A DNA stretch of 64,000 nucleotides, taken from assembly GCA_023053545.1 (NCBI GenBank), contig JAKZAN010000093.1, positions 57,895 through 121,894 of the forward strand. The letters run 5' to 3'. Below the pieces are notes generated by a model that saw only the letters and a list, made by a program, of their open reading frames with translations, did not search any database and was not told the origin of the DNA. The position numbers and the translations under genes are program-made. The stretch is from Lepidurus packardi. Lineage: Eukaryota; Arthropoda; Branchiopoda; Notostraca; Triopsidae. Below are positions 4,062-58,780 of the stretch, in pieces. The first letter of the stretch is position 1, and each line of letters starts with the position of its first letter.

Positions 4062-5543
4062 AGGATTGATTGAATTCCTTTCTTACTGAAAAAATTCCTT
4101 ACGGACTGAATTAATTTCTTAATTAATTCCTTACGGACTGAATTAATTTCATACGGACTGAATTAATTCATTACGGACTGTATTAATCCATTACGGACTG
4201 AATTAATTCCTTACGGGATTAATTAATTCCTTACGTACTGAATTAATTCCTTACGGACTGAATTAATTCCTTACGGACTGAATTAGTTCCTTACGGACGG
4301 AATTAATTCTTTAGGATTGATTGAATTCCTTTCTTACTGAATTAATTCCTTACGGATTGAATTAATTTCATACGGACTGAATTAATACCTTACGGACTGA
4401 ATTAATTTCATCCGGACTGAATTAATTCATTAAGCACTTAATTAATCCATTACGGACTGAATTATTTCCTTACGTATTGAAGTTATTCCTTACGGACTGA
4501 ATTAATACCTTACGGACTGAATTAAATCCTTACGGACTGAATTAATTCCTTACGGACTTAATTAATTCCTTACGGTCTGAATTAATTCATTACGGACTGA
4601 ATTAATTCCCTACGGACTGAATTAATTCCTTACTGACCTAATTAATTACTTACGGACGGAATTAATTCCTTACGAACTTAATTAATTCCTTACGTACTTA
4701 ATTAATTCCTTACGGTCTGAATTAATTCCGTACGGATTTAATTAATTCCTTACTGACTGAATTAATTCCTTACGGACTGAATTAATTCATTATGGACTTA
4801 ATTAATTCCGTAACGAATGAATGAATTAATTACGGACTGGAATAATTCCTTACGGACTAAATTAATTCCTTACGAACTGAATTAATTCCTAACGGACTGA
4901 ATTAATTCCTTACGGACTGAATTAATTCCTTAATTAATTCCTTACGGACTGAATTAATTCCTTACGGACTGAATTACTTCCTTACGGACTGAATTAATTC
5001 CTCAATTCCTTAATTAATTCCTTACGGACTGAATTAATTTCATCCGGACTGAATTAATTCATTACGCACTTAATTAATCCATTACGGACTGAATTATTTC
5101 CTTACGTATTGAAGTTATTCCTTACGGACTGAATTAATTAATTACGGACTGAATTAATTCCTTACGGACTTAATTAATAAATTACGGACTGAATTATTTC
5201 CTTACGTACTGAAGTTATTCCTTACGTATTGAAGTTATTCCTTACGGACTGAATTAATTCCTTACGGACTGAATTAATTCCTTACGGACTGAATTAATAC
5301 CCTACGGACATAATTAATTCCTTACGGACTGATTTAAATCCATACGGACTTAGTTAATTCCTTCCGAATTTAATTAATTTCTTACGGACTGAATCAATTC
5401 ATTACAGACTTAATTTATCCATTACGGACTTAATTAATTCATTACGGACTTAATTAATTCCTTACGGACTGAACTAATTCCTTACGGACTGATTTAATTC
5501 CTTACGGAATGAATTATTTTCTTACGGACTGAATTAATTCTTT
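4062..5543. repeat. 1,482-bp HOR, copy 2 of 2
   Basis: Tandem partner of 2580-4061, with S sites at 4062, 4313 and 5544 preserving the 251 + 1,231 bp spacing exactly. Beyond 5544 the sequence departs: a short 139-bp S-to-S interval leads to 5683. Small differences include AATTAATTACGG near 5147 where copy 1 has ATTCCTTACGG, with no change in length. Confidence 0.9.
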
Positions 5544-19909: not shown

Positions 19910-21080
19910 AGGATTGATTGAATTCCTTTCTTACTGAAAAAATTCCTTACGGACTGAATTAATTCCTTAATTAATTCCTTACGGACTGAATTAATTTCAT
20001 ACAGACTGAATTAATTCCTTACGGACTGTATTAATTCCTTACGGACTGAATTAATTCCTTAATTCCTTAATTAATTCCTTACGGACTGAATTAATTTCAT
20101 CCGGACTGAATTAATTCCTTACGGACTTAATTAATTCCTTACGGACTGAATTAATTCATTACGGACTGAATTAATTCATTACGGACTGAATTAATACCTC
20201 ACGGACTGAATTAAATCCTTACGGACTGAATTAATTCCTTACGGACTTAATTAATTCCTTACGGACTGAATTAATTCATTACGGACTGAATTAATTCCTT
20301 ACGGACTGAATTAATTCCTTACGGACCTAATTAATTCCTTACGGACGGAATTAATTCTTTACGGACTTAATTAATTCCTTACGGACTTAATTAATTCCTT
20401 ACGTACTTGATTAATTCCTTACGGTCTGAATTAATTCCGTACGGATTTAATTAATTCCTTACGGACTGAATTAATTCATTATGGACTTAATTAATTCCGT
20501 AAGGAATGAATGAATTAATTACGGACTGAAATAATTCCTTACGGACTAAATTAATTCCTTACGGACTGAATTAATTCCTTACGGACTGTATTAATTCCTT
20601 ACGGACTGAATTAATACCTTACGGACTGAATTAAATCCTTACGGACTGAATTAATTCCTTACGGACTTAATTAATTCCTTACGGACTTAATTAATTCTTT
20701 ACGGACTGAATTAATTCATTACGGACTGAATTAATTCATTACGGACTGAATTAATACCTCACGGACTGAATTAAATCCTTACGGACTGAATTAATTCATT
20801 ACGGACTGAATTAATTCCTTACGGACTGAATTAATTCCTTACGGACCTAATTAATTCCTTACGGACGGAATTAATTCTTTACAGACTTAATTAATTCATT
20901 ATGGACTTAATTAATTCCGTAAGGAATGAATGAATTAATTACGGACTGAAATAATTCCTTACGGACTAAATTAATTCCTTACGGACTGAATTAATTCCTT
21001 ACGGACTGAATTAATTCCTTACGGACTGAATTAATTCCTTACGGACTGAATTATTTCCTTAGGGACTGAATTAATTCTTT
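19910..21080. repeat. 1.17-1.25 kb module, copy 1 of 3
   Basis: Exactly 1,171 bp between S sites. It carries CATACAGACTG, CCTTAATTCC, CCTCACGG, ACGTACTTGATT near 20402, two CCGTAAGGAAT dyads near 20498 and 20918, and TTAGGGACTG at the end near 21061. The same order is found at 25272-26442 and 27003-28253. Confidence 0.87.
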
Positions 21081-36608: not shown

Positions 36609-36711
36609 ATTAAATAATTAATTTATTAATTATTAATTAATAATTAATAATTAACTATTATAATTATTAATAAATTAATAAATAATTATTAATTAATTAA
36701 TTAATTAATTA
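36609..36711. repeat. A/T island 1 (103 bp)
   Basis: Pure A/T except for one C at 36655 that no other island has. The 28-bp perfect palindrome lies at 36623-36650. The arms TCCGTAA just upstream and TTACGGA at its right end form a 7-bp inverted repeat around the island. S lies 243 bp upstream. The right end is a (TTAA)n run that passes into ordinary satellite. Confidence 0.93.
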
Positions 36712-39120
36712 CGGACTGAAATAATTCCTTACGGACTGAATTAATTCCTTAATTAATTCCTTACGGACTGAATTAATTTCATACGGACTAAATTAATTCA
36801 TTACGGACTTAATTAAATCCTTACAGACTGAATTAATTCCTTATGGACTTAATTAATTCCGTAAGGAATGAATTAATTAATTACGGACTGAAATAATTCC
36901 TTACGAAATGAATTAATTCCTTACGGACTGAATTAATTCCTTACGGACTGAATTAATTCTTTAATTAATTCCTTACGGACTGAATTAATTTCATACGGAC
37001 CGAATTAATTCATTTCGGACTTAATTAATCGATTACGGACTGAATTAATTCCTTACGGACTGAATTAATTCCTTACACACTGAATTAATTCCTTACGGCC
37101 TGAATTAATTCCTTACGGACTGAATTAATACCTTACGGACTGAATTAAATCCTTACGGACTGAATTAATTCCTTACGGACTGAATTAGTTCTTTACGGAC
37201 TGAATTAATTCCTTACGGATTTTATTAATTCCTTACGGACTGAATTAATTCATTTCGGAATGAAGAAATTCCTTACGAACTGAATTAATTCCGTTCGGAT
37301 TTTATTAATTCCTTACGGACTGAATTAATTCATTACGGACTGAAATAATTCCTTAAGGACTGAATTAATTAATTACGGACTGAATTAATTCCTTAATTAA
37401 TTCCTTACGGACTGAATTAATTTCATACGGACTGAATTAATTCATTACGGACTTAATTAATCGATTACGGACTGAATTAATTCCTTACGTACTGAACTTA
37501 TTCCTTACGGACTGAATTAATTCCTTACGGACTGAATTAATTCCTTACGGACTGAATTAATTCCTTACGGACTGAATTAATACCTTACGGACTGAATTAA
37601 ATCCTTACGGACTGAATTAATTCCTTACGGACTGAATTAATTCCTTACGGACTGAATTAATTCCTTACTGACGGAATTAATTCCTTACGGACTGAATTAA
37701 TTCCTTACGGACTGAATTAATTCCTTACGGATTTAATTAATTCCTTACGGACTTATTTAATTCCTTACGTACTTAATTAATTCCGTAAGGAATGAATTAA
37801 TTAATTACGGACTGAAATAATTCCTTACGGACTGAATTTATTCCTTACGAACTGAATTAATTCCTTACGCACTGAATTAATTCCTTACGGACTGAATTAA
37901 TTCCTTACGGAATTAATTAATTCCTTACGTACTTAATTAATTCCTTACGGGCTGAATTAATTCCGTACGGATTTTATTAATTCCTTACGGACTGAATTAA
38001 TTCCTTACGAACTGAATTAATTCCTTACTGACTTAATTAATTCCTTACGGACTTAATTAATTCCTTACGTACTTAATTAATTCCTTACGGTCTGAATTAA
38101 TTCCGTACGGATTTAATTAATTCCTTACGGACTGAATTAATTCCTTACGTACTGAATTAATTCCTTACTGACTGAATTAATTCCTTACGGACTGAATGAA
38201 TTCCTTACGGACTGAATTAATTCCTTACGGACTGAATTTATTCCTTAATTCCTTAATTAATTCCTTACGGACTGAATTAATTTCATCCGGACTGAATTAA
38301 TTCATTACGCACTTAATTAATCCATTACGGACTGAATTATTTCCTTACGTATTGAAGTTATTCCTTACGGACTGAATTAATTCCTTACGGACTGAATTAA
38401 TACCTTACGGACTGAATTAAATCCTTACGGACTGAATTAATTCCTTACTTACTTAATTAATTCCTTACGGACTGAATTAATTCTTTACGGACTTAATTAA
38501 TTCCTTACGGACTAAATTAATTCCTTACGTACTTAATTAATTCCTTACGGTCTGAATTAATTCCGTACGGATTTCATTAATTCCTTACTTACTGAATTAA
38601 TTCCTTACGGACTGAATTAATTCCTTACGGACTGAATTATTTCCTTACGGACTGAATTAATTCCTTAATTAATTCCTTACGGACTGAATTAATTTCATAC
38701 GGACTGAATTAATTCATTACGGACTTAATTAATATATTACGGACTGAATTAATTCCTTACGTACTGAACTTATTCCTTACGGACTGAATTAATTCTTACG
38801 GACTGAATTAATTCCTTACGGACTGAATTAATTCCTTACGGACTGAATTAATTCCTTACGGACTGAATTAATTCTTTAGGATTGATTGAATTCCTTTCTT
38901 ACTGAATTAATTGCTTACGGACTGAATTAATTCCTTACGGACTGAATTAATTTCATACGGACTGAATTAATTCATTACGGACTGAATTAATTTCATACGG
39001 ACTGAATTAATTCATTACGGACTTAATTAATCCATTACGGACTGAATTAATTTCATACGGACTGAATTAATTCATTACGGACTGAACTTATTCCTTACGG
39101 ACTTAATCAATTCCGTAAGG
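36712..39120. repeat. Satellite between islands 1 and 2
   Basis: After the island: ACGGACTGAAATAA, CATACGGACTAAATT, a short dyad CCGTAAGGAATG near 36862, ACGAAATG, ACACACTG near 37077 and GGCCTG near 37099. This post-island order (about 550 bp) is conserved after every island. From about 37800 the sequence repeats 35.2-36.6 kb (ACTTACTTAA, ATATATTACGG, the 19-bp monomer) and leads to S 38878 and island 2. Confidence 0.82.
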
Positions 39121-39223
39121 ATTAAATAATTAATTTATTAATTATTAATTAATAATTAATAATTAATTATTATAATTATTAATAAATTAATAAATAATTA
39201 TTAATTAATTAATTAATTAATTA
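39121..39223. repeat. A/T island 2 (103 bp)
   Basis: 100% A/T, the same 103-bp short form as island 1 but without the C. Palindrome at 39135-39162; arms TCCGTAA at 39112-39118 and TTACGGA at 39221-39227. S lies 243 bp upstream. It starts 2,512 bp after island 1. Confidence 0.94.
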
Positions 39224-39240
39224 CGGACTGAAATAATTCC

Positions 39241-42200
39241 TTACGGACTGAATTAATTCCTTAATTAATTCCTTACGGACTGAATTAATTTCATACGGAC
39301 TAAATTAATTCATTACGGACTTAATTAAATCCTTACAGACTGAATTAATTCCTTATGGACTTAATTAATTCCGTAAGGAATGAATTAATTAATTACGGAC
39401 TGAAATAATTCCTTACGAAATGAATTAATTCCTTACGGACTGAATTAATTCCTTACGGACTGAATTAATTCTTTAATTAATTCCTTACGGACTGAATTAA
39501 TTTCATACGGACCGAATTAATTCATTTCGGACTTAATTAATCGATTACGGACTGAATTAATTCCTTACGGACTGAATTAATTCCTTACACACTGAATTAA
39601 TTCCTTACTGCCTGAATTAATTCCTTACTGACTGAATTAATACCTTACGGACTGAATTAAATCCTTACGGACTGAATTAATTCCTTACGGACTGAATTAG
39701 TTCTTTACGGACTGAATTAATTCCTTACGGACTGAATTAATTCCTTACGGACTGAATTAGTTCCTTAAGGACTGAATTAATTCCTTACGGACTGAATTAA
39801 TTCCTTTCGGACTTAGTTAATTCCTTTCGGACTTAGTTAATTCCTTACGTACTTAATTAATTCCTTACGGTCTGAATTAATTCCGTACGGATTTTATTAA
39901 TTCCTTACGGACTGAATTAATTCATTTCGGAATGAAGAAATTCCTTACGAACTGAATTAATTCCGTTCGGATTTTATTAATTCCTTACGGACTGAATTAA
40001 TTCATTACGGACTGAAATAATTCCTTACGGACTGAATTAATTAATTACGGACTGAATTAATTCCTTAATTAATTCCTTACGGACTGAATTAATTTCATAC
40101 GGACTGAATTAATTCATTACGGACTTAATTAATCGATTACGGACTGAATTAATTCCTTACGTACTGAACTTATTCCTTACGGACTGAATTAATACCTTAC
40201 GGACTGAATTAAATCCTTACGGACTGAATTAATTCCTTACGGACTGAATTAATTCCTTACGGACTGAATTAATTCCTTACTGACGGAATTAATTCCTTAC
40301 GGACTGAATTAATTCCTTACGGACTGAATTAATTCCTTACGGATTTAATTAATTCCTTACGGACTTATTTAATTCCTTACGTACTTAATTAATTCCTTAC
40401 GGTCTGAATTAATTCCTTACGGGTTTAATTAATTCCTTACGGACTGAATTAATTCCTTACGGACTGAATTAATTCATTATGGACTAAATTAATTCCGTAA
40501 TAAATGAATGAATTAATTACGGACTGAAATAATTCCTTACGGACTAAATTAATTCCTTACGAACTGAATTAATTCCTTACGGACTGAATTAATTCCTTAC
40601 GGACTGAATTAATTCCTTATGGACTGAATTATTTCCTTACGGACTGAATTAATTCTTTAGGATTGATTGAATTCCTTTCTTACTGAAAAAATTCCTTACG
40701 GACTGAATTAATTCCTTAATTAATTCCTTACGGACTGAATTAATTTCATACGGACTAAATTAATTCATTACGGACTTAATTAAATCCTTACAGACTGAAT
40801 TAATTCCTTATGGACTTAATTAATTCCGTAAGGAATGAATTAATTAATTACGGACTGAAATAATTCCTTACGAAATGAATTAATTCCTTACGGACTGAAT
40901 TAATTCCTTACGGACTGAATTAATTCTTTAATTAATTCCTTACGGACTGAATTAATTTCATACGGACCGAATTAATTCATTTCGGACTTAATTAATCGAT
41001 TACGGACTGAATTAATTCCTTACGGACTGAATTAATTCCTTACACACTGAATTAATTCCTTACGGCCTGAATTAATTCCTTACGGACTGAATTAATACCT
41101 TACGGACTGAATTAAATCCTTACGGACTGAATTAATTCCTTACGGACTGAATTAGTTCTTTACGGACTGAATTAATTCCTTACGGACTGAATTAATTCCT
41201 TACGGACTGAATTAGTTCCTTAAGGACTGAATTAATTCCTTACGGACTGAATTAATTCCTTTCGGACTTAGTTAATTCCTTTCGGACTTAGTTAATTCCT
41301 TACGTACTTAATTAATTCCTTACGGTCTGAATTAATTCCGTACGGATTTTATTAATTCCTTACGGACTGAATTAATTCATTTCGGAATGAAGAAATTCCT
41401 TACGAACTGAATTAATTCCGTTCGGATTTTATTAATTCCTTACGGACTGAATTAATTCATTACGGACTGAAATAATTCCTTACGGACTGAATTAATTAAT
41501 TACGGACTGAATTAATTCCTTAATTAATTCCTTACGGACTGAATTAATTTCATACGGACTGAATTAATTCATTACGGACTTAATTAATCGATTACGGACT
41601 GAATTAATTCCTTACGTACTGAACTTATTCCTTACGGACTGAATTAATTCCTTACGGACTGAATTAATTCCTTACGGACTGAATTAATTCCTTACGGACT
41701 GAATTAATACCTTACGGACTGAATTAAATCCTTACGGACTGAATTAATTCCTTACGGACTGAATTAATTCCTTACGGACTGAATTAATTCCTTACTGACG
41801 GAATTAATTCCTTACGGACTGAATTAATTCCTTACGGACTGAATTAATTCCTTACGGATTTAATTAATTCCTTACGGACTTATTTAATTCCTTACGTACT
41901 TAATTAATTCCTTACGGTCTGAATTAATTCCTTACGGGTTTAATTAATTCCTTACGGACTGAATTAATTCCTTACGGACTGAATTAATTCATTATGGACT
42001 AAATTAATTCCGTAATAAATGAATGAATTAATTACGGACTGAAATAATTCCTTACGGACTAAATTAATTCCTTACGAACTGAATTAATTCCTTACGGACT
42101 GAATTAATTCCTTACGGACTGAATTAATTCCTTATGGACTGAATTATTTCCTTACGGACTGAATTAATTCTTTAGGATTGATTGAATTCCTTTCTTACTG
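39241..42200. repeat. 1,455/1,515-bp tandem duplication without an island
   Basis: The post-island module occurs twice in tandem. ACACACTG at 39587 recurs at 41042 (offset 1,455) and S at 40659 recurs at 42174 (offset 1,515). The 60-bp difference is three extra monomers near 41640. Only copy 1 is preceded by an island; copy 2 begins after an A-run S. Shared markers are TTCGGACTTAGTT twice in a row, GAAGAAATTCC, CCGTTCGG and the degraded dyad CCGTAATAAATG. Confidence 0.82.
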
Positions 42201-45200
42201 AAAAAATTCCTTACGGACTGAATTAATTCCTTAATTAATTCCTTACGGACTGAATTAATTCCTTACGAACTGAATTAATTCCTTACTGACTTAATTAATT
42301 CCTTTCGGACTGAATTAATTCTTTACGGACTTTATTAATTCCTTACGGACTTAATAAATTCCTTACGTACTTAATTAATTCCTTACGGTCTGAATTAATT
42401 CCGTACGGATTTAATTAATTCCTTACGGACTGAATTAATTCCTTACGAACTGAATTAATTCCTTACTGACTGAATTAATTCCTTACGGACTGAATGAATT
42501 CCTTACGGACTGAATTAATTCCTTACGGACTGAATTTATTCCTTAATTCCTTAATTAATTCCTTACGGACTGAATTAATTTCATCCGGACTGAATTAATT
42601 CATTACGCACTTAAATAATCCATTACGGACTGAATTATTTCCTTACGTATTGAAGTTATTCCTTACGGACTGAATTAATTCCTTACGGACTGAATTAATA
42701 CCTTACGGAATGAATTAAATCCTTACGGACTGAATTAATTCCTTACTTACTTAATTAATTCCTTACGGACTGAATTAATACCTTACGGACTGAATTAATT
42801 CCTTACGGTCTGAATTAATTCCGTACGGATTTAATTAATTCCTTACGGACTGAATTAATTCCTTACGGACTGAATTAATTCATTATGGACTTAATTAATT
42901 CCGTAAGGAATGAATGAATTAATTACGGACTGAAATAACTCCTTACGGACTGAATTAATTCCTTACGAACTGAATTAATTCCTTACGGACTGAGTTAATT
43001 CCTTACGGACTGAATTAATTCCTTACGGACTGAATTAATTCCTTACGGACTGAATTAATTCTTTAGGATTTATTGAATTCCTTTCTTACTGAATTAACTA
43101 CTTACGGACTGAATGAATTCCTTACGGACTGAATTAATTCCTTACGGAATTAATTAATTCCTTACGTACTTAATTAATTCCTTACGGTCTGAATTAATTC
43201 CGTACGGATTTTATTAATTCCTTACGGACTGAATTAATTCCTTACGAACTGAATTAATTCCTTACTGACTGAATTAATTCCTTACGGACTGAATGAATTC
43301 CTTACGGACTGAATTAATTCCTTACGGACTGAATTAATTCATTACGCACTTAATTAATCCATTACGGACTGAATTATTTCCTTACGTATTGAAGTTATTC
43401 CTTACGGACTGAATTAATTCCTTACGGACTGAATTAATTCCTTACGGACTGAATTAATACCTTACGGACTGAATTAAATCCTTACGGACTGAATTAATTC
43501 CTTACTTACTTAATTAATTCCTTACGGACTGAATTAATTCATTACGGACTGAATTAATTCATTACGGACTGAATTAATACCTCACGGACTGAATTAAATC
43601 CTTATGGACTGAATTAATTCCTTACGGAATTAATTAATTCCTTACGAAATGAACTTATTCCTTACGGACTGAATTAATTCCTTACGGACTGAATTAATTC
43701 CTTACGGACTGAATTAATTCCTTACGGACTGAATTAATTCCTAACGGACTGAATTAATTCCTTACGTACTGAATTAATTCCTTACGGACTGAATTAATAC
43801 CTTACGGATTTAATTAATTCCTTACGGTCTGAATTAATTCCGTACGGATTTAATTAATTCCTTACGGACTGAATTAATTCCTTACGGACTGAATTAATTC
43901 ATTATGGACTTAATTAATTCCGTAAGGAATGAATTAATTAATTACGGACTGAAATAATTCCTTACGGACTGAATTTATTCCTTACGAACTGAATTAATTC
44001 CTTACGGACTGAATTAATTCCTTACGGACTGAATTAATTCCTTACGGAATTAATTAATTCCTTACGTACTGAATTAATTCCTTACGAACTGAATTAATTC
44101 CTTACTGACTTAATTAATTCCTTACGGACTGAATTAATTCTTTACGGACTTAATTAATTCCTTACGGACTTAATTAATTCCTTACGTACTTAATTAATTC
44201 CTTACGGTCTGAATTAATTCCGTACGGATTTAATTAATTCCTTACGGACTGAATTAATTCCTTACGTACTGAATTAATTCCTTACTGACTGAATTAATTC
44301 CTTACGGACTGAATGAATTCCTTACGGACTGAATTAATTCCTTACGGACTGAATTTATTCCTTAATTCCTTAATTAATTCCTTACGGACTGAATTAATTT
44401 CATCCGGACTGAATTAATTCATTACGCACTTAATTAATCCATTACGGACTGAATTATTTCCTTACGTATTGAAGTTATTCCTTACGGACTGAATTAATTC
44501 CTTACGGACTGAATTAATACCTTACGGACTGAATTAAATCCTTACGGACTGAATTAATTCCTTACTTACTTAATTAATTCCTTACGGACTGAATTAATTC
44601 TTTACGGACTTAATTAATTCCTTACGGACTAAATTAATTCCTTACGTACTTAATTAATTCCTTACGGTCTGAATTAATTCCGTACGGATTTCATTAATTC
44701 CTTACGGACTGAATTAATTCCTTACGGACTGAATTAATTCCTTACGGACTGAATTATTTCCTTACGGACTGAATTAATTCCTTAATTAATTCCTTACGGA
44801 CTGAATTAATTTCATACGGACTGAATTAATTCATTACGGACTTAATTAATATATTACGGACTGAATTAATTCCTTACGTACTGAACTTATTCCTTACGGA
44901 CTGAATTAATTCTTACGGACTGAATTAATTCCTTACGGACTGAATTAATTCCTTACGGACTGAATTAATTCCTTACGGACTGAATTAATTCTTTAGGATT
45001 GATTGAATTCCTTTCTTACTGAATTAATTGCTTACGGACTGAATTAATTCCTTACGGACTGAATTAATTTCATACGGACTGAATTAATTCATTACGGACT
45101 GAATTAATTTCATACGGACTGAATTAATTCATTACGGACTTAATTAATCCATTACGGACTGAATTAATTCATTACGGACTGAACTTATTCCTTACGGACT

Positions 45201-46823
45201 TAATCAATTCCGTAAGGATTAAATAATTAATTTATTAATTATTAATTAATAATTAATAATTAATTATTATAATTATTAATAAATTAATAAATTAATAAAT
45301 AATTATTAATTAATTAATTAATTAATTACGGACTGAAATAATTCCTTACGGACTGAATTAATTCCTTAATTAATTCCTTACGGACTGAATTAATTTCATA
45401 CGGACTAAATTAATTCATTACGGACTTAAATAAATCCTTACAGACTGAATTAATTCCTTATGGACTTAATTAATTCCGTAAGGAATGAATTAATTAATTA
45501 CGGACTGAAATAATTCCTTACGAAATGAATTAATTCCTTACGGACTGAATTAATTCCTTACGGACTGAATTAATTCTTTAATTAATTCCTTACGGACTGA
45601 ATTAATTTCATACGGACCGAATTAATTCATTTCGGACTTAATTAATCGATTACGGACTGAATTAATTCCTTACGGACTGAATTAATTCCTTACACACTGA
45701 ATTAATTCCTTACGGCCTGAATTAATTCCTTACGGACTGAATTAATACCTTACGGACTGAATTAAATCCTTACGGACTGAATTAATTCCTTACGGACTGA
45801 ATTAGTTCCTTACGGACTGAATTAATTCCTTACGGACTGAATTAATTCCTTACGGACTGAATTAGTTCCTTAAGGACTGAATTAATTCCTTACGGACTGA
45901 ATTAATTCCTTTCGGACTTAGTTAATTCCTTACGTACTTAATTAATTCCTTACGGTCTGAATTAATTCCGTACGGATTTTATTAATTCCTTACGGACTGA
46001 ATTAATTCATTTCGGAATGAAGAAATTCCTTACGAACTGAATTAATTCCGTTCGGATTTTATTAATTCCTTACGGACTGAATTAATTCATTACGGACTGA
46101 AATAATTCCTTACGGACTGAATTAATTAATTACGGACTGAATTAATTCCTTAATTAATTCCTTACGGACTGAATTAATTTCATACGGACTGAATTAATTC
46201 ATTACGGACTTAATTAATCGATTACGGACTGAATTAATTCCTTACGTACTGAACTTATTCCTTACGGACTGAATTAATTCCTTACGGACTGAATTAATTC
46301 CTTACGGACTGAATTAATTCCTTACGGACTGAATTAATACCTTACGGACTGAATTAAATCCTTACGGACTGAATTAATTCCTTACGGACTGAATTAATTC
46401 CTTACGGACTGAATTAATTCCTTACTGACGGAATTAATTCCTTACGGACTGAATTAATTCCTTACGGACTGAATTAATTCCTTACGGATTTAATTAATTC
46501 CTTACGGACTTATTTAATTCCTTACGTACTTAATTAATTCCTTACGGTCTGAATTAATTCCTTACGGTCTGAATTAATTCCGTACGGGTTTAATTAATTC
46601 CTTACGGACTGAATTAATTCCTTACGGACTGAATTAATTCATTATGGACTAAATTAATTCCGTAATAAATGAATGAATTAATTACGGACTGAAATAATTC
46701 CTTACGGACTAAATTAATTCCTTACGAACTGAATTAATTCCTTACGGACTGAATTAATTCCTTACGGACTGAATTAATTCCTTATGGACTGAATTATTTC
46801 CTTACGGACTGAATTAATTCTTT
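42174..46823. repeat. 4,650-bp island HOR, copy 1
   Basis: From S 42174 to S 46824. Includes S 43065 (GGATTTATTG subtype), S 44995, island 3, the post-island module and CCGTAATAAATG near 46662. The next copy starts with the same sequence 4,650 bp later (S 46824, ACGAAC at 46915 versus 42265). Confidence 0.87.
45218..45328. repeat. A/T island 3 (111 bp)
   Basis: First long-form island: an extra ATTAATAA unit (8 bp) follows the centre, relative to islands 1 and 2. Palindrome at 45232-45259. S lies 223 bp upstream because one 20-bp monomer with CATACGG is missing here, the only island with this spacing. Confidence 0.94.
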
Positions 46824-49800
46824 AGGATTGATTGAACTCCTTTCTTACTGAAAAAATTCCTTACGGACTGAATTAATTCCTTAATTAATTCCTTACGGAC
46901 TGAATTAATTCCTTACGAACTGAATTAATTCCTTACTGACTTAATTAATTCCTTACGGACTGAATTAATTCTTTACGGACTTAATTAATTCCTTACGGAC
47001 TTAATTAATTCCTTACGTACTTAATTAATTCCTTACGGTCTGAATTAATTCCGTACGGATTTAATTAATTCCTTACGGACTGAATTAATTCCTTACGAAC
47101 TGAATTAATTCCTTACTTACTGAATTAATTCCTTACGGACTGAATGAATTCCTTACGGACTGAATTAATTCCTTACGGACTGAATTTATTCCTTAATTCC
47201 TTAATTAATTCCTTACGGACTGAATTAATTTCATCCGGACTGAATTAATTCATTACGCACTTAAATAATCCATTACGGACTGAATTATTTCCTTACGTAT
47301 TGAAGTTATTCCTTACGGACTGAATTAATTCCTTACGGACTGAATTAATACCTTACGGAATGAATTAAATCCTTACGGACTGAATTAATTCCTTACTTAC
47401 TTAATTAATTCCTTACGGACTGAATTAATACCTTACGGACTGAATTAATTCCTTACGGTCTGAATTAATTCCGTACGGATTTAATTAATTCCTTACGGAC
47501 TGAATTAATTCCTTACGGACTGAATTAATTCATTATGGACTTAATTAATTCCGTAAGGAATGAATGAATTAATTACGGACTGAAATAACTCCTTACGGAC
47601 TGAATTAATTCCTTACGAAATGAATTAATTCCTTACGGACTGAGTTAATTCCTTACGGACTGAATTAATTCCTTACGGACTGAATTAATTCCTTACGGAC
47701 TGAATTAATTCTTTAGGATTTATTGAATTCCTTTCTTACTGAATTAACTACTTACGGACTGAATGAATTCCTTACGGACTGAATTAATTCCTTACGGAAT
47801 TAATTAATTCCTTACGTACTTAATTAATTCCTTACGGTCTGAATTAATTCCGTACGGATTTTATTAATTCCTTACGGACTGAATTAATTCCTTACGAACT
47901 GAATTAATTCCTTACTGACTGAATTAATTCCTTACGGACTGAATGAATTCCTTACGGACTGAATTAATTCCTTACGGACTGAATTAATTCATTACGCACT
48001 TAATTAATCCATTACGGACTGAATTATTTCCTTACGTATTGAAGTTATTCCTTACGGACTAAATTAATTCCTTACGGACTGAATTAATTCCTTACGGACT
48101 GAATTAATACCTTACGGACTGAATTAAATCCTTACGGACTGAATTAATTCCTTACTTACTTAATTAATTCCTTACGGACTGAATTAATTCTTTACGGACT
48201 TAATTAATTCCTTACGGACTTAATTAATTCCTTACGTACTTAATTAATTCCTTACGGTCTGAATTAATTCCGTACGGATTTAATTAATTCCTTACGGACT
48301 GAACTAATTCCTTACGGACTGAATTAATTCATTATGGACTTAATTAATTCCGTAAGGAATGAATGAATTAATTACGGACTGAAATAATTCCTTACGGACT
48401 AAATTAATTCCTTACGGACTGAATTAATTCCTTACGGACTGTATTAATTCCTTACGGACTGAATTAATACCTTACGGACTGAATTAAATCCTTACGGACT
48501 GAATTAATTCCTTACGGACTTAATTAATTCCTTACGGACTTAATTAATTCCTTACGGACTTAATTAATTCCTTACGGACTGAATTAATTCATTACGGACT
48601 GAATTAATTCATTACGGACTGAATTAATACCTCACGGACTGAATTAAATCCTTATGGACTGAATTAATTCCTTACGGAATTAATTAATTCCTTACGAAAT
48701 GAACTTAGTCCTTACGGACTGAATTAATTCCTTACGGACTGAATTAATTCCTTACGGACTGAATTAATTCCTTACGGACTGAATTAATTCCTAACGGACT
48801 GAATTAATTCCTTACGGACTGAATTAATTCCTTACGGACTGAATTAATACCTTACGGATTTAATTAATTCCTTACGGTCTGAATTAATTCCGTACGGATT
48901 TTATTAATTCCTTACGGACTGAATTAATTCCTTACGAACTGAATTAATTCCTTACTGACTTAATTAATTCCTTACGGACTGAATTAATTCTTTACGGACT
49001 TAATTAATTCCTTACGGACTTAATTAATTCCTTACGTACTTAATTAATTCCTTACGGTCTGAATTAATTCCGTACGGATTTAATTAATTCCTTACGGACT
49101 GAATTAATTCCTTACGTACTGAATTAATTCCTTACTGACTGAATTAATTCCTTACGGACTGAATGAATTCCTTACGGACTGAATTAATTCCTTACGGACT
49201 GAATTTATTCCTTAATTCCTTAATTAATTCCTTACGGACTGAATTAATTTCATCCGGACTGAATTAATTCATTACGCACTTAATTAATCCATTACGGACT
49301 GAATTATTTCCTTACGTATTGAAGTTATTCCTTACGGACTGAATTAATTCCTTACGGACTGAATTAATACCTTACGGACTGAATTAAATCCTTACGGACT
49401 GAATTAATTCCTTACTTACTTAATTAATTCCTTACGGACTGAATTAATTCTTTACGGACTTAATTAATTCCTTACGGACTAAATTAATTCCTTACGTACT
49501 TAATTAATTCCTTACGGTCTGAATTAATTCCGTACGGATTTAATTAATTCCTTACGGACTGAATTAATTCCTTACGGACTGAATTAATTCCTTACGGACT
49601 GAATTATTTCCTTACGGACTGAATTAATTCCTTAATTAATTCCTTACGGACTGAATTAATTTCATACGGACTGAATTAATTCATTACGGACTTAATTAAT
49701 ATATTACGGACTGAATTAATTCCTTACGTACTGAACTTATTCCTTACGGACTGAATTAATTCTTACGGACTGAATTAATTCCTTACGGACTGAATTAATT

Positions 49801-50760
49801 CCTTACGGACTGAATTAATTCCTTACGGACTGAATTAATTCTTTAGGATTGATTGAATTCCTTTCTTACTGAATTAATTGCTTACGGACTGAATTAATTC
49901 CTTACGGACTGAATTAATTTCATACGGACTGAATTAATTCATTACGGACTGAATTAATTTCATACGGACTGAATTAATTCATTACGGACTTAATTAATCC
50001 ATTACGGACTGAATTAATTTCATACGGACTGAATTAATTCATTACGGACTGAACTTATTCCTTACGGACTTAATCAATTCCGTAAGGATTAAATAATTAA
50101 TTTATTAATTATTAATTAATAATTAATAATTAATTATTATAATTATTAATAAATTAATAAATTAATAAATAATTATTAATTAATTAATTAATTAATTACG
50201 GACTGAAATAATTCCTTACGGACTGAATTAATTCCTTAATTAATTCCTTACGGACTGAATTAATTTCATACGGACTAAATTAATTCATTACGGACCTAAT
50301 TAAATCCTTACAGACTGAATTAATTCCTTATGGACTTAATTAATTCCGTAAGGAATGAATTAATTAATTACGGACTGAAATAATTCCTTACGAAATGAAT
50401 TAATTCCTTACGGACTGAATTAATTCCTTACGGACTGAATTAATTCTTTAATTAATTCCTTACGGACTGAATTAATTTCATACGGACCGAATTAATTCAT
50501 TTCGGACTTAATTAATCGATTACGGACTGAATTAATTCCTTACGGACTGAATTAATTCCTTACACACTGAATTAATTCCTTACGGCCTGAATTAATTCCT
50601 TACGGACTGAATTAATACCTTACGGACTGAATTAAATCCTTACGGACTGAATTAATTCCTTACGGACTGAATTAGTTCCTTACGGACTGAATTAATTCCT
50701 TACGGACTGAATTAATTCCTTACGGACTGAATTAGTTCCTTAAGGACTGAATTAATGCCT
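46824..50760. repeat. 4,650-bp island HOR, copy 2 (truncated)
   Basis: S sites 46824, 47715 and 49845 with island 4. It keeps the 891-bp S-to-S interval exactly, but the next interval is 2,130 rather than 1,930 bp (ten extra monomers, 48.18-48.6 kb). Near 50760 the post-island module breaks off and joins sequence like 48.27 kb (TTACTTACTTAA, then CCGTACGGATTT twice), a recombination junction that shortens the next unit. Private change: S at 46824 reads GAACTCC instead of GAATTCC. Confidence 0.85.
50088..50198. repeat. A/T island 4 (111 bp)
   Basis: 100% A/T, long form, palindrome at 50102-50129, S 243 bp upstream. It starts 4,870 bp after island 3, which is the 4,650-bp HOR plus 220 bp (11 monomers). 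Confidence 0.94.
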
Positions 50761-51661
50761 TACGGACTGAATTAATTCCTTACTTACTTAATTAATTCCT
50801 TACGGTCTGAATTAATTCCGTACGGATTTAATTAATTCCTTACGGTCTGAATTAATTCCGTACGGATTTAATTAATTCCTTACGGACTGAACTAATTCCT
50901 TACGGACTGAATTAATTCATTATGGACTTAATTAATTCCGTAAGGAATGAATGAATTAATTACGGACTGAAATAATTCCTTACGGACTAAATTAATTCCT
51001 TACGGACTGAATTAATTCCTTACGGACTGTATTAATTCCTTACGGACTGAATTAATACCTTACGGACTGAATTAAATCCTTACGGACTGAATTAATTCCT
51101 TACGGACTTAATTAATTCCTTACGGACTTAATTAATTCCTTACGGACTGAATTAATTCATTACGGACTGAATTAATTCATTACGGACTGAATTAATACCT
51201 CACGGACTGAATTAAATCCTTATGGACTGAATTAATTCCTTACGGAATTAATTAATTCCTTACGAAATGAACTTATTCCTTACGGACTGAATTAATTCCT
51301 TACGGACTGAATTAATTCCTTACGGACTGAATTAATTCCTTACGGACTGAATTAATTCCTAACGGACTGAATTAATTCCTTACGGACTGAATTAATTCCT
51401 TACGGACTGAATTAATACCTTACGGATTTAATTAATTCCTTACGGTCTGAATTAATTCCGTACGGATTTAATTAATTCCTTACGGGCTGAATTAATTCCT
51501 TACGGACTGAATTAATTCATTATGGACTTAATTAATTCCGTAAGGAATGAATTAATTAATTACGGACTGAAATAATTCCTTACGGACTGAATTTATTCCT
51601 TACGAACTGAATTAATTCCTTACGGACTGAATTAATTCCTTACGGACTGAATTAATTCCTT
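50761..51661. repeat. Recombinant satellite leading into the 2.4-kb HOR
   Basis: Follows the 48.27-49.0 kb order: a dyad near 50938, ATACC/AAATCC, CCTCACGG, ACGAAATGAACTTATT near 51264, CCTAACGG, CCGTACGGATTT. The CCGTACGG monomer and its neighbour are doubled at the entry, 50.80-50.88 kb. Confidence 0.75.
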
Positions 51662-54060
51662 ACGGAATTAATTAGTTCCTTACGTACTTAATTAATTCCT
51701 TACGGGCTGAATTAATTCCGTACGGATTTTATTAATTCCTTACGGACTGAATTAATTCCTTACGAACTGAATTAATTCCTTACTGACTTAATTAATTCCT
51801 TACGGACTGAATTAATTCTTTACGGACTTAATTAATTCCTTACGGACTTAATTAATTCCTTACGTACTTAATTAATTCCTTACGGTCTGAATTAATTCCG
51901 TACGGATTTAATTAATTCCTTACGGACTGAATTAATTCCTTACGTACTGAATTAATTCCTTACTGACTGAATTAATTCCTTACGGACTGAATGAATTCCT
52001 TACGGACTGAATTAATTCCTTACGGACTGAATTTATTCCTTAATTCCTTAATTAATTCCTTACGGACTGAATTAATTTCATCCGGACTGAATTAATTCAT
52101 TACGCACTTAATTAATCCATTACGGACTGAATTATTTCCTTACGTATTGAAGTTATTCCTTACGGACTGAATTAATTCCTTACGGACTGAATTAATACCT
52201 TACGGACTGAATTAAATCCTTACGGACTGAATTAATTCCTTACTTACTTAATTAATTCCTTACGGACTGAATTAATTCTTTACGGACTTAATTAATTCCT
52301 TACGGACTAAATTAATTCCTTACGTACTTAATTAATTCCTTACGGTCTGAATTAATTCCGTACGGATTTAATTAATTCCTTACGGACTGAATTAATTCCT
52401 TACGGACTGAATTAATTCCTTACGGACTGAATTATTTCCTTACGGACTGAATTAATTCCTTAATTAATTCCTTACGGACTGAATTAATTTCATACGGACT
52501 GAATTAATTCATTACGGACTTAATTAATATATTACGGACTGAATTAATTCCTTACGTACTGAACTTATTCCTTACGGACTGAATTAATTCTTACGGACTG
52601 AATTAATTCCTTACGGACTGAATTAATTCCTTACGGACTGAATTAATTCCTTACGGACTGAATTAATTCTTTAGGATTGATTGAATTCCTTTCTTACTGA
52701 ATTAATTGCTTACGGACTGAATTAATTCCTTACGGACTGAATTAATTTCATACGGACTGAATTAATTCATTACGGACTGAATTAATTTCATACGGACTGA
52801 ATTAATTCATTACGGACTTAATTAATCCATTACGGACTGAATTAATTTCATACGGACTGAATTAATTCATTACGGACTGAACTTATTCCTTACGGACTTA
52901 ATCAATTCCGTAAGGATTAAATAATTAATTTATTAATTATTAATTAATAATTAATAATTAATTATTATAATTATTAATAAATTAATAAATTAATAAATAA
53001 TTATTAATTAATTAATTAATTAATTACGGACTGAAATAATTCCTTACGGACTGAATTAATTCCTTAATTAATTCCTTACGGACTGAATTAATTTCATACG
53101 GACTAAATTAATTCATTACGGACTTAATTAAATCCTTACAGACTGAATTAATTCCTTATGGACTTAATTAATTCCGTAAGGAATGAATTAATTAATTACG
53201 GACTGAAATAATTCCTTACGAAATGAATTAATTCCTTACGGACTGAATTAATTCCTTACGGACTGAATTAATTCTTTAATTAATTCCTTACGGACTGAAT
53301 TAATTTCATACGGACCGAATTAATTCATTTCGGACTTAATTAATCGATTACGGACTGAATTAATTCCTTACGGACTGAATTAATTCCTTACACACTGAAT
53401 TAATTCCTTACGGCCTGAATTAATTCCTTACGGACTGAATTAATACCTTACGGACTGAATTAAATCCTTACGGACTGAATTAATTCCTTACGGACTGAAT
53501 TAGTTCCTTACGGACTGAATTAATTCCTTACGGACTGAATTAATTCCTTACGGACTGAATTAGTTCCTTAAGGACTGAATTAATTCCTTACGGACTGAAT
53601 TAATTCCTTTCGGACTTAGTTAATTCCTTACGTACTTAATTAATTCCTTACGGTCTGAATTAATTCCGTACGGATTTTATTAATTCCTTACGGACTGAAT
53701 TAATTCATTTCGGAATGAAGAAATTCCTTACGAACTGAATTAATTCCGTTCGGATTTTATTAATTCTTTCGGACTGAATTAATTCATTACGGACTGAAAT
53801 AATTCCTTACGGACTGAATTAATTAATTACGGACTGAATTAATTCCTTAATTAATTCCTTACGGACTGAATTAATTTCATACGGACTGAATTAATTCATT
53901 ACGGACTTAATTAATCGATTACGGACTGAATTAATTCCTTACGTACTGAACTTATTCCTTACGGACTGAATTAATTCCTTACGGACTGAATTAATTCCTT
54001 ACGAACTGAATTAATTCCTTACGGACTGAATTAATTCCTTACGGACTGAATTAATTCCTT
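51662..54060. repeat. 2.4-kb island HOR, copy 1 (2,399 bp)
   Basis: Measured between ACGGAATTAATTAGTT landmarks. Contains the CATCCGG/ACGCAC cassette, ACTTACTTAA, ATATATTACGG, the 19-bp AATTCTTACGG monomer, S 52673, island 5, the post-island module and TTCGGAATGAAGAAATT. It closes near 54000 by joining CGTACTGAACTTATT to ACGAACTG, a junction that copies 2 and 3 inherit or approach. Confidence 0.92.
52916..53026. repeat. A/T island 5 (111 bp)
   Basis: 100% A/T, long form, palindrome at 52930-52957, S 243 bp upstream. Member of the young 2.4-kb HOR. Confidence 0.94.
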
Positions 54061-56439
54061 ACGGAATTAATTAGTTCCTTACGTACTTAATTAATTCCTT
54101 ACGGGCTGAATTAATTCCGTACGGATTTTATTAATTCCTTACGGACTGAATTAATTCCTTACGAACTGAATTAATTCCTTACTGACTTAATTAATTCCTT
54201 ACGGACTGAATTAATTCTTTACGGACTTAATTAATTCCTTACGGACTTAATTAATTCCTTACGTACTTAATTAATTCCTTACGGTCTGAATTAATTCCGT
54301 ACGGATTTAATTAATTCCTTACGGACTGAATTAATTCCTTACGTACTGAATTAATTCCTTACTGACTGAATTAATTCCTTACGGACTGAATGAATTCCTT
54401 ACGGACTGAATTAATTCCTTACGGACTGAATTTATTCCTTAATTCCTTAATTAATTCCTTACGGACTGAATTAATTTCATCCGGACTGAATTAATTCATT
54501 ACGCACTTAATTAATCCATTACGGACTGAATTATTTCCTTACGTATTGAAGTTATTCCTTACGGACTGAATTAATTCCTTACGGACTGAATTAATACCTT
54601 ACGGACTGAATTAAATCCTTACGGACTGAATTAATTCCTTACTTACTTAATTAATTCCTTACGGACTGAATTAATTCTTTACGGACTTAATTAATTCCTT
54701 ACGGACTAAATTAATTCCTTACGTACTTAATTAATTCCTTACGGTCTGAATTAATTCCGTACGGATTTAATTAATTCCTTACGGACTGAATTAATTCCTT
54801 ACGGACTGAATTAATTCCTTACGGACTGAATTATTTCCTTACGGACTGAATTAATTCCTTAATTAATTCCTTACGGACTGAATTAATTTCATACGGACTG
54901 AATTAATTCATTACGGACTTAATTAATATATTACGGACTGAATTAATTCCTTACGTACTGAACTTATTCCTTACGGACTGAATTAATTCTTACGGACTGA
55001 ATTAATTCCTTACGGACTGAATTAATTCCTTACGGACTGAATTAATTCTTTAGGATTGATTGAATTCCTTTCTTACTGAATTAATTGCTTACGGACTGAA
55101 TTAATTCCTTACGGACTGAATTAATTTCATACGGACTGAATTAATTCATTACGGACTGAATTAATTTCATACGGACTGAATTAATTCATTACGGACTTAA
55201 TTAATCCATTACGGACTGAATTAATTTCATACGGACTGAATTAATTCATTACGGACTGAACTTATTCCTTACGGACTTAATCAATTCCGTAAGGATTAAA
55301 TAATTAATTTATTAATTATTAATTAATAATTAATAATTAATTATTATAATTATTAATAAATTAATAAATTAATAAATAATTATTAATTAATTAATTAATT
55401 AATTACGGACTGAAATAATTCCTTACGGACTGAATTAATTCCTTAATTAATTCCTTACGGACTGAATTAATTTCATACGGACTAAATTAATTCATTACGG
55501 ACTTAATTAAATCCTTACAGACTGAATTAATTCCTTATGGACTTAATTAATTCCGTAAGGAATGAATTAATTAATTACGGACTGAAATAATTCCTTACGA
55601 AATGAATTAATTCCTTACGGACTGAATTAATTCCTTACGGACTGAATTAATTCTTTAATTAATTCCTTACGGACTGAATTAATTTCATACGGACCGAATT
55701 AATTCATTTCGGACTTAATTAATCGATTACGGACTGAATTAATTCCTTACGGACTGAATTAATTCCTTACACACTGAATTAATTCCTTACGGCCTGAATT
55801 AATTCCTTACGGACTGAATTAATACCTTACGGACTGAATTAAATCCTTACGGACTGAATTAATTCCTTACGGACTGAATTAGTTCCTTACGGACTGAATT
55901 AATTCCTTACGGACTGAATTAATTCCTTACGGACTGAATTAGTTCCTTAAGGACTGAATTAATTCCTTACGGACTGAATTAATTCCTTTCGGACTTAGTT
56001 AATTCCTTACGTACTTAATTAATTCCTTACGGTCTGAATTAATTCCGTACGGATTTTATTAATTCCTTACGGACTGAATTAATTCATTTCGGAATGAAGA
56101 AATTCCTTACGAACTGAATTAATTCCGTTCGGATTTTATTAATTCTTTCGGACTGAATTAATTCATTACGGACTGAAATAATTCCTTACGGACTGAATTA
56201 ATTAATTACGGACTGAATTAATTCCTTAATTAATTCCTTACGGACTGAATTAATTTCATACGGACTGAATTAATTCATTACGGACTTAATTAATCGATTA
56301 CGGACTGAATTAATTCCTTACGTACTGAACTTATTCCTTACGGACTGAATTAATTCCTTACGGACTGAATTAATTCCTTACGAACTGAATTAATTCCTTA
56401 CGGACTGAATTAATTCCTTACGGACTGAATTAATTCCTT
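54061..56439. repeat. 2.4-kb island HOR, copy 2 (2,379 bp)
   Basis: Same order as copy 1. It is exactly one monomer shorter, lost between the 19-bp monomer near 54988 and S 55052. I saw no other length difference and very few substitutions. Confidence 0.92.
55295..55405. repeat. A/T island 6 (111 bp)
   Basis: 100% A/T, long form, palindrome at 55309-55336, S 243 bp upstream, 2,379 bp after island 5. No difference from island 5 is visible. Confidence 0.94.
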
Positions 56440-58780
56440 ACGGAATTAATTAGTTCCTTACGTACTTAATTAATTCCTTACGGGCTGAATTAATTCCGTA
56501 CGGATTTTATTAATTCCTTACGGACTGAATTAATTCCTTACGAACTGAATTAATTCCTTACTGACTTAATTAATTCCTTACGGACTGAATTAATTCTTTA
56601 CGGACTTAATTAATTCCTTACGGACTTAATTAATTCCTTACGTACTTAATTAATTCCTTACGGTCTGAATTAATTCCGTACGGATTTAATTAATTCCTTA
56701 CGGACTGAATTAATTCCTTACGTACTGAATTAATTCCTTACTGACTGAATTAATTCCTTACGGACTGAATGAATTCCTTACGGACTGAATTAATTCCTTA
56801 CGGACTGAATTTATTCCTTAATTCCTTAATTAATTCCTTACGGACTGAATTAATTTCATCCGGACTGAATTAATTCATTACGCACTTAATTAATCCATTA
56901 CGGACTGATTTATTTCCTTACGTATTGAAGTTATTCCTTACGGACTGAATTAATTCCTTACGGACTGAATTAATACCTTACGGACTGAATTAAATCCTTA
57001 CGGACTGAATTAATTCCTTACTTACTTAATTAATTCCTTACGGACTGAATTAATTCTTTACGGACTTAATTAATTCCTTACGGACTAAATTAATTCCTTA
57101 CGTACTTAATTAATTCCTTACGGTCTGAATTAATTCCGTACGGATTTAATTAATTCCTTACGGACTGAATTAATTCCTTACGGACTGAATTAATTCCTTA
57201 CGGACTGAATTATTTCCTTACGGACTGAATTAATTCCTTAATTAATTCCTTACGGACTGAATTAATTTCATACGGACTGAATTAATTCATTACGGACTTA
57301 ATTAATATATTACGGACTGAATTAATTCCTTACGTACTGAACTTATTCCTTACGGACTGAATTAATTCTTACGGACTGAATTAATTCCTTACGGACTGAA
57401 TTAATTCCTTACGGACTGAATTAATTCCTTACGGACTGAATTAATTCTTTAGGATTGATTGAATTCCTTTCTTACTGAATTAATTGCTTACGGACTGAAT
57501 TAATTCCTTACGGACTGAATTAATTTCATACGGACTGAATTAATTCATTACGGACTGAATTAATTTCATACGGACTGAATTAATTCATTACGGACTTAAT
57601 TAATCCATTACGGACTGAATTAATTTCATACGGACTGAATTAATTCATTACGGACTGAACTTATTCCTTACGGACTTAATCAATTCCGTAAGGATTAAAT
57701 AATTAATTTATTAATTATTAATTAATAATTAATAATTAATTATTATAATTATTAATAAATTAATAAATTAATAAATAATTATTAATTAATTAATTAATTA
57801 ATTACGGACTGAAATAATTCCTTACGGACTGAATTAATTCCTTAATTAATTCCTTACGGACTGAATTAATTTCATACGGACTAAATTAATTCATTACGGA
57901 CTTAATTAAATCCTTACAAACTGAATTAATTCCTTATGGACTTAATTAATTCCGTAAGGAATGAATTAATTAATTACGGACTGAAATAATTCCTTACGAA
58001 ATGAATTAATTCCTTACGGACTGAATTAATTCCTTACGGACTGAATTAATTCTTTAATTAATTCCTTACGGACTGAATTAATTTCATACGGACCGAATTA
58101 ATTCATTTCGGACTTAATTAATCGATTACGGACTGAATTAATTCCTTACGGACTGAATTAATTCCTTACACACTGAATTAATTCCTTACGGCCTGAATTA
58201 ATTCCTTACGGACTGAATTAATACCTTACGGACTGAATTAAATCCTTACGGACTGAATTAATTCCTTACGGACTGAATTAGTTCCTTACGGACTGAATTA
58301 ATTCCTTACGGACTGTATTAATTCCTTACGGACTGAATTAGTTCCTTAAGGACTGAATTAATTCCTTACGGACTGAATTAATTCCTTTCGGACTTAGTTA
58401 ATTCCTTACGTACTTAATTAATTCCTTACGGTCTGAATTAATTCCGTACGGATTTTATTAATTCCTTACGGACTGAATTAATTCATTTCGGAATGAAGAA
58501 ATTCCTTACGAACTGAATTAATTCCGTTCGGATTTTATTAATTCTTTCGGACTGAATTAATTCATTACGGACTGAAATAATTCCTTACGGACTGAATTAA
58601 TTAATTACGGACTGAATTAATTCCTTAATTAATTCCTTACGGACTGAATTAATTTCATACGGACTGAATTAATTCATTACGGACTTAATTAATCGATTAC
58701 GGACTGAATTAATTCCTTACGTACTGAACTTATTCCTTACGGACTGAATTAATTCCTTACGGACTGAATTAATTCCTTAC
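56440..58780. repeat. 2.4-kb island HOR, copy 3 (incomplete)
   Basis: Follows copy 1 through S 57451 and island 7, with isolated changes: GACTGATTTATT near 56906, ACAAACTG near 57916, GACTGTATT near 58315. Near 58781 it fails to enter ACGAACTG and continues instead like 37.5 and 41.7 kb. Confidence 0.9.
57694..57804. repeat. A/T island 7 (111 bp)
   Basis: 100% A/T, long form, palindrome at 57708-57735, S 243 bp upstream, 2,399 bp after island 6. Last island in the window. Confidence 0.94.

Follow-up and report, generated by a model that had tools for sequence, protein, structure and literature searches.

The seven A/T islands in this satellite array of Lepidurus packardi very probably descend from one rare, local expansion of an A/T run, which then spread together with the repeat block around it, so that the islands would be passengers in the evolution of the satellite. 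Their number, placement and sequence identity can be explained without any function. Below, we describe the islands and the array that carries them, the ordinary satellite site from which they would have arisen, the copying of the blocks in which they lie, and the properties that might have suggested a role.

A 20-bp satellite with seven A/T islands

The window, i.e., the whole stretch of DNA that was analyzed, makes up the final 64,000 bases of C82, a contig of 121,894 bases in an assembly of 108,557,554 bases and 344 contigs. It is filled from end to end by a tandem array of a 20-bp monomer, TTAATTCCTTACGGACTGAA. When three exact consecutive monomers (60 bases) were searched for in the assembly, we obtained 11,683 matches, compared to none for the reversed control. 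Using the density on C82 (172 three-monomer matches per 121,894 bases), this gives a rough estimate of ~8.3 Mb for the whole satellite. Sites among the matches listed include the end of C1, the first 22 kb of C2 as well as its position 165 kb, and the first 22 kb of C4. The monomer, searched as six rotations/strands, was absent from the open-access literature that was searched, and the satellite may therefore be undescribed in open-access text. Among the best-ranked literature matches, judged by their titles and the starts of their abstracts, there was no paper on such A/T islands, and no Rfam family matched the 64-kb window at gathering thresholds. As a kind of sequence, the satellite is familiar. 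The islands and the S marker cores that precede them are as follows (window positions).

36609..36711, plus strand: A/T island 1, 103-bp form, with a sole C at 36655
39121..39223, plus strand: A/T island 2, 103-bp form
45218..45328, plus strand: A/T island 3, 111-bp form with the extra 8-bp unit ATTAATAA; its S marker is 223 bp upstream
50088..50198, plus strand: A/T island 4, 111-bp form
52916..53026, plus strand: A/T island 5, 111-bp form
55295..55405, plus strand: A/T island 6, 111-bp form
57694..57804, plus strand: A/T island 7, 111-bp form; with CCGTAA and TTACGG on its two sides, it folds on paper into a stem bearing two hairpins
57451..57463, plus strand: S marker core AGGATTGATTGAA before island 7
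36366, 38878, 44995, 49845, 52673 and 55052: S marker cores before islands 1 to 6

The preliminary description had reported seven islands of 103 or 111 bp, with one C in the first, and we could confirm each of them. Islands 2 to 7 consist of A and T only, the two length forms differ by a single 8-bp unit (ATTAATAA), and successive islands are spaced by 2,512, 6,097, 4,870, 2,828, 2,379, and 2,399 bp. Apart from the islands, no A/T run of the window exceeds 22 bp. A random sequence with the same GC content would be expected to contain ~4e-13 runs of at least 103 bp per 64 kb, which is an unfair null for a repeat. The reported setting of the islands also held up for the most part. The S marker core lies 243 bp ahead of six islands and 223 bp ahead of the one at 45218, as described; it is not specific to islands, since C82 has 85 occurrences of the 13-letter core, 51 of which are in the window. 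That the same order of monomers follows each island for ~550 bp is a fair account, with 21 of 21 copy pairs agreeing over 480 to 2,028 bp with three mismatches at most. The statement that islands are the only stretches that are not monomer is roughly right: only islands leave 122 to 130 bp without any of six consensus words, but many degenerate monomers leave 25 to 62 bp.

The satellite on C82 flips orientation once, with 41 kb in minus followed by 81 kb in plus orientation. The switch is at C82:41065-41219, 16.7 kb before the window, and a motif found there resembles the unexpanded site described in the next section. Two further orientation changes were seen on C1 (C1:14014300-14030100), each at an insertion of DNA other than the satellite; on visual inspection, these look like a putative LTR retrotransposon and part of its terminal repeat. 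We considered the unexpanded site as a general pivot for inversions and rejected this idea, with such a motif at one of the three orientation changes (C82) and the other two (C1) at non-satellite inserts. Macro-dyad satellite arrays are stated to be documented in Tribolium only (excerpt of PMC13081366). The 20-bp satellite is found at one end of C1, C2, and C4, while a second A/T-rich satellite, containing AAATTTC words, is found at the starts of C3, C6, and C65. C65 carries the 20-bp satellite at its opposite end, and the two satellites may be neighbors at chromosome ends. C3, which starts with the AAATTTC satellite, ends in TTAGG repeats, and C4 terminates in CCTAAC-rich DNA, which hints at chromosomes with a satellite at one end and a telomere at the other. 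Elsewhere in the assembly, a COX1 copy on a 10.7-Mb contig has one stop under the invertebrate mitochondrial code; this copy and the TTAGG repeats of C3 are the two signs that give the assembly an arthropod-like character. Large contigs (C1, C2, C4, C5, C6, C21, and C38) hold numerous COX1 matches containing TGA codons, which look like nuclear copies of mitochondrial DNA, and three COX1-like frames without stops (C52, C214, and C43) may be bacterial. Histone genes form long tandem clusters with repeated spacing on C2, C3, and C9.

The unexpanded site and the rarity of islands

Elsewhere in the satellite, the locus that carries the island is unexpanded and reads CCGTAAGGAATGAATTAATTAATTACGG. 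This unexpanded ("empty") site belongs to a pair of variant monomers, TTAATTCCGTAAGGAATGAA and TTAATTAATTACGGACTGAA, which are three and two substitutions away from the consensus, keep perfect 20-bp register, and contain a 13-bp A/T run. The idea that CCGTAAGG is a flipped CCTTACGG, i.e., an inverted monomer, was rejected because three substitutions in register suffice and no inversion is needed. Together with its right flank, the unexpanded site was found at 4,469 places in the assembly at two mismatches or fewer (reversed control, 0); C82 accounts for 100 of these places, 51 of which are in the window. Its 38-base form has 15 exact matches in the window, and each island has an exact unexpanded site 252 or 260 bp after its own start, as exemplified by island 7.

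57954..57991, plus strand: exact unexpanded site, one of 15 in the window

In island copies, the island stands in place of the site's inner A/T run, the one G of the site included. In contrast to the abundance of unexpanded sites, islands are rare: the search of the whole assembly that the preliminary description had proposed yielded 12 (seven on C82, four on C77, and one on C105). A 35-base piece of the left half of the island had exact matches at 10 places and one-mismatch matches at two others (control, 0), and two more matches, with three mismatches on the opposite strand, were at these two one-mismatch places. A 35-base piece of the right half matched exactly at the same 12 islands, with two three-mismatch matches on the opposite strand at the last two; its reversed control likewise gave 12 matches, and the count is therefore of little help in judging specificity. 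For neither piece was there a relative outside the 12 islands at three mismatches or fewer in the assembly. Searching from the borders, we found at least 28 A/T bases after CGTAAGG at 15 places, corresponding to the 12 islands and three unrelated T-rich runs, and 27 A/T bases before TTACGGAC at 12 places, all of which are islands. Piece and border searches thus agree on a total of 12, a count that rests on assembled sequence in which copies may have been missed or collapsed. Partial matches on C48, C65, C49, C68, and C4 were rejected as islands since five such places, upon inspection, have the right flank only and no island.

The island copies have the flank letter TAATCAATTCCGTAAGG in common. 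An exact 27-base flank marker was found at 43 places (675 at one mismatch or fewer), 12 of which are the island copies. We inspected all of the other 31 sites, over 361 bases each, and found an island in none of them. The longest A/T run at these sites is 13 bp in 25 cases, 10 bp in five, and 17 bp in one, a copy on C134 in which the G adjoining the run is replaced by T. This copy shows how the run can lengthen, and we do not claim that it is an ancestor of the islands. No A/T run of 28 to 102 bp was found between island borders in the assembly by the searches from both borders, whose reach excludes runs of 18 to 27 bp and runs broken by G/C near both borders. Stepwise growth is therefore not seen, and a single larger event, such as a template switch or filler repair, is equally possible.

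The lack of runs of intermediate length would also suit the insertion of a small mobile element or the capture of foreign A/T DNA, which we nevertheless regard as highly improbable. Six of the seven window copies are devoid of G and C, the two 35-base pieces lack the relatives elsewhere in the assembly that mark a transposable element, and the site has lost its own G while its A/T words run on at both ends of the island. Any A/T target site duplication would look identical to these A/T words of the unexpanded site. An assembly artefact might be suspected as low-complexity repeats are hard to assemble, but it is scarcely credible given that the islands come in two lengths and two sequence types, are spread over three contigs, and have consistent flanks.

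The preferred scenario, a local expansion followed by block copying, would thus begin with the common variant monomer pair and its 13-bp run, which a G-to-T change next to the run could extend to 17 bp, as seen in the one other copy on C134. In one copy, the run would then have grown to ~100 to 110 bp, by slippage or by fold-back copying of ATTA-like units. The expanded form, of which there are now two sequence types, two lengths, and 12 copies, would have been spread by unequal exchange or break-induced copying of blocks that measure ~2.4 to 2.8 kb, some of the spacings being wider.

Repeated blocks and comparison of island copies

Kilobase-long identities between the neighborhoods of different islands are evident in the window. 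The longest of those listed here is a block of 1,920 bp that is repeated letter for letter.

52610..54529, plus strand: 1,920-bp block with island 5, identical to 54989-56908
54989..56908, plus strand: the 1,920-bp block again, here containing island 6

Another exact self-repeat spanning islands, of 1,417 bp, is found at 48879 and 51707. Self-identities at islands have a mean of 1,096 bp, compared to 608 bp for circularly shifted positions, a value reached by 1.6% of the shifts; since the islands form one local cluster, this test has little independent weight. When the window on C82 was compared to C77:90001-126001, we observed a chain of long exact matches with an offset drifting from 15.9 to 28 kb. 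These homologous stretches, which are either alleles or paralogues, carry seven and three islands, respectively, with the fourth C77 island outside the compared part. The islands thus show all three features of a higher-order-repeat variant of a satellite: repetition within the array together with their neighbors, unexpanded homologues, and a copy number that differs between homologous arrays. In such arrays, higher-order repeats grow by unequal exchange or break-induced replication (excerpt of PMC8997354). The likeness to this process, as outlined in that excerpt, is that a variant monomer is carried in duplicated, near-identical blocks whose number differs between homologous stretches. The difference is that the island variant is about five monomers long and breaks the 20-bp register.

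That islands sit amid the longest self-identities of the window, with its longest exact self-repeats at island blocks, would also be expected of a self-promoting element, in which forks stalled at the A/T stretch would lead to break-induced copying of the block that contains it. Fork stalling does figure in a published model of higher-order-repeat growth (excerpt of PMC8997354), and fork stalling in vitro has been reported for the A/T-rich repeat of FRA16B, which has a 33-bp unit (excerpt of PMC9714581). If this were true, we would be looking at a young local burst of higher-order repeats caught near its start. We consider it very unlikely, since an exact repeat of 1,220 bp (at 20969 and 28142) contains no island, the assembly total is only 12 copies, and the hairpin potential of the islands, detailed in the next section, equals that of shuffles with the same 3-letter words.

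Are islands better kept than their surroundings? We aligned ten copies (seven from C82 and three from C77) with 700 bp on each side. From ~310 bp before to ~80 bp after the island there is no substitution in ~390 flank columns, 67 of which hold gaps. Inside the island, there is one variable column and an 8-column gap corresponding to one ATTAATAA unit. The second island type is represented by the copies at C77:66.9 kb and C105:41.3 kb, which are 97.6% alike over 1.19 kb. Comparing the C105 copy to the one at 57694, we found two differences between the types among 111 island positions and five among the 270 positions downstream. Of 312 aligned positions upstream, 15 are different, in addition to 16 gap columns, while the nearest ~180 are identical. 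These upstream differences are all far from the island, where the gapped alignment pairs different monomers. Island and flank differences are comparable, and the island is therefore no better kept than its surroundings; extra conservation was found neither in the ten-copy alignment nor in the comparison of the two types.

Melting, folding, and the question of function

The islands were described as homologous to one another, which is right, and as easy to unwind, which was borne out by nearest-neighbor stability. They have values of -0.85 to -0.86 kcal/mol per step, compared to a mean of -1.19 (SD 0.02) for the rest of the window, in which the least stable 100 bp reach -1.11. The islands are thus predicted to melt easily, as would be expected of a replication origin or DNA unwinding element. 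The predicted fold, two hairpins on a short stem, has an energy of -25.9 kcal/mol and a z score of -5.3 relative to dinucleotide shuffles. The best ungapped arm is 26 bp with three mismatches, another is 37 bp with seven, and the arm score is reached by 1.7% (111-bp form) and 5% (103-bp form) of dinucleotide shuffles. Relative to 3-mer shuffles, the fold shows no excess (z -0.24 and +0.45), and with shuffles preserving 3-, 4-, and 5-mers, the effect is gone in all three island forms tested (z -0.43 to +1.21). The hairpin potential is therefore a by-product of ATTA-like words, and a hairpin or cruciform as a selected structure, strong as it appeared against dinucleotide shuffles, was dropped.

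How do islands compare to other A/T-rich or dyad-bearing DNA, as presented in excerpts of the cited sources? In humans, FRA16B and FRA10B are A/T-rich minisatellites that have expanded (PMC9714581), and what they have in common with the islands is A/T-rich DNA grown by repeat expansion. Unlike the islands, which are ~100 bp long with irregular short units and no known fragility, they have units of 33 and ~42 bp extending over kilobases (PMC9714581). Palindromic A/T-rich repeats (PMC3197554) share with the islands their A/T richness and, on paper, their self-complementarity. The islands differ from them (PMC3197554) in that their arm is 26 bp with three mismatches and that 3-mer-preserving shuffles fold just as well, i.e., self-complementarity beyond word content was not found. 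Finally, the array has short inverted words and an orientation change in common with dyad-bearing centromeric satellites (PMC8997354; Tribolium madens, PMC13081366), whereas the islands are too few to be the dyad element of this satellite.

An origin, a scaffold attachment site, or an AT-hook binding site had initially been suggested as possible roles of the islands. Any of these, or a DNA unwinding element, would make the island a functional element kept by selection. Such a reading might be favored by the islands being by far the least stable 100-bp stretches of the window and by the near identity of the seven window copies, among which a single C and a single 8-bp unit are the sole differences. 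We nonetheless judge it very unlikely, and on sequence grounds these roles appear unsupported: there are 12 copies on three contigs versus 4,469 unexpanded sites in a satellite estimated at 8 Mb, the flanks are as alike as the islands, and homologous stretches carry seven versus three copies. Twelve copies also make it unlikely that the islands serve the satellite in a general way. The conserved placement would arise by itself from the copying of a larger repeat block. Judged from their sequence, the islands look ordinary for satellite DNA, with no sign of a special function.

Taken together with the expansion and block copying proposed above, these findings caution against taking the conserved placement of an element within a satellite, on its own, as evidence of function. 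Since unexpanded sites, one slightly longer run, expanded forms, and block copies coexist in one assembly, the array offers a clear case of a satellite gaining and spreading an internal variant.
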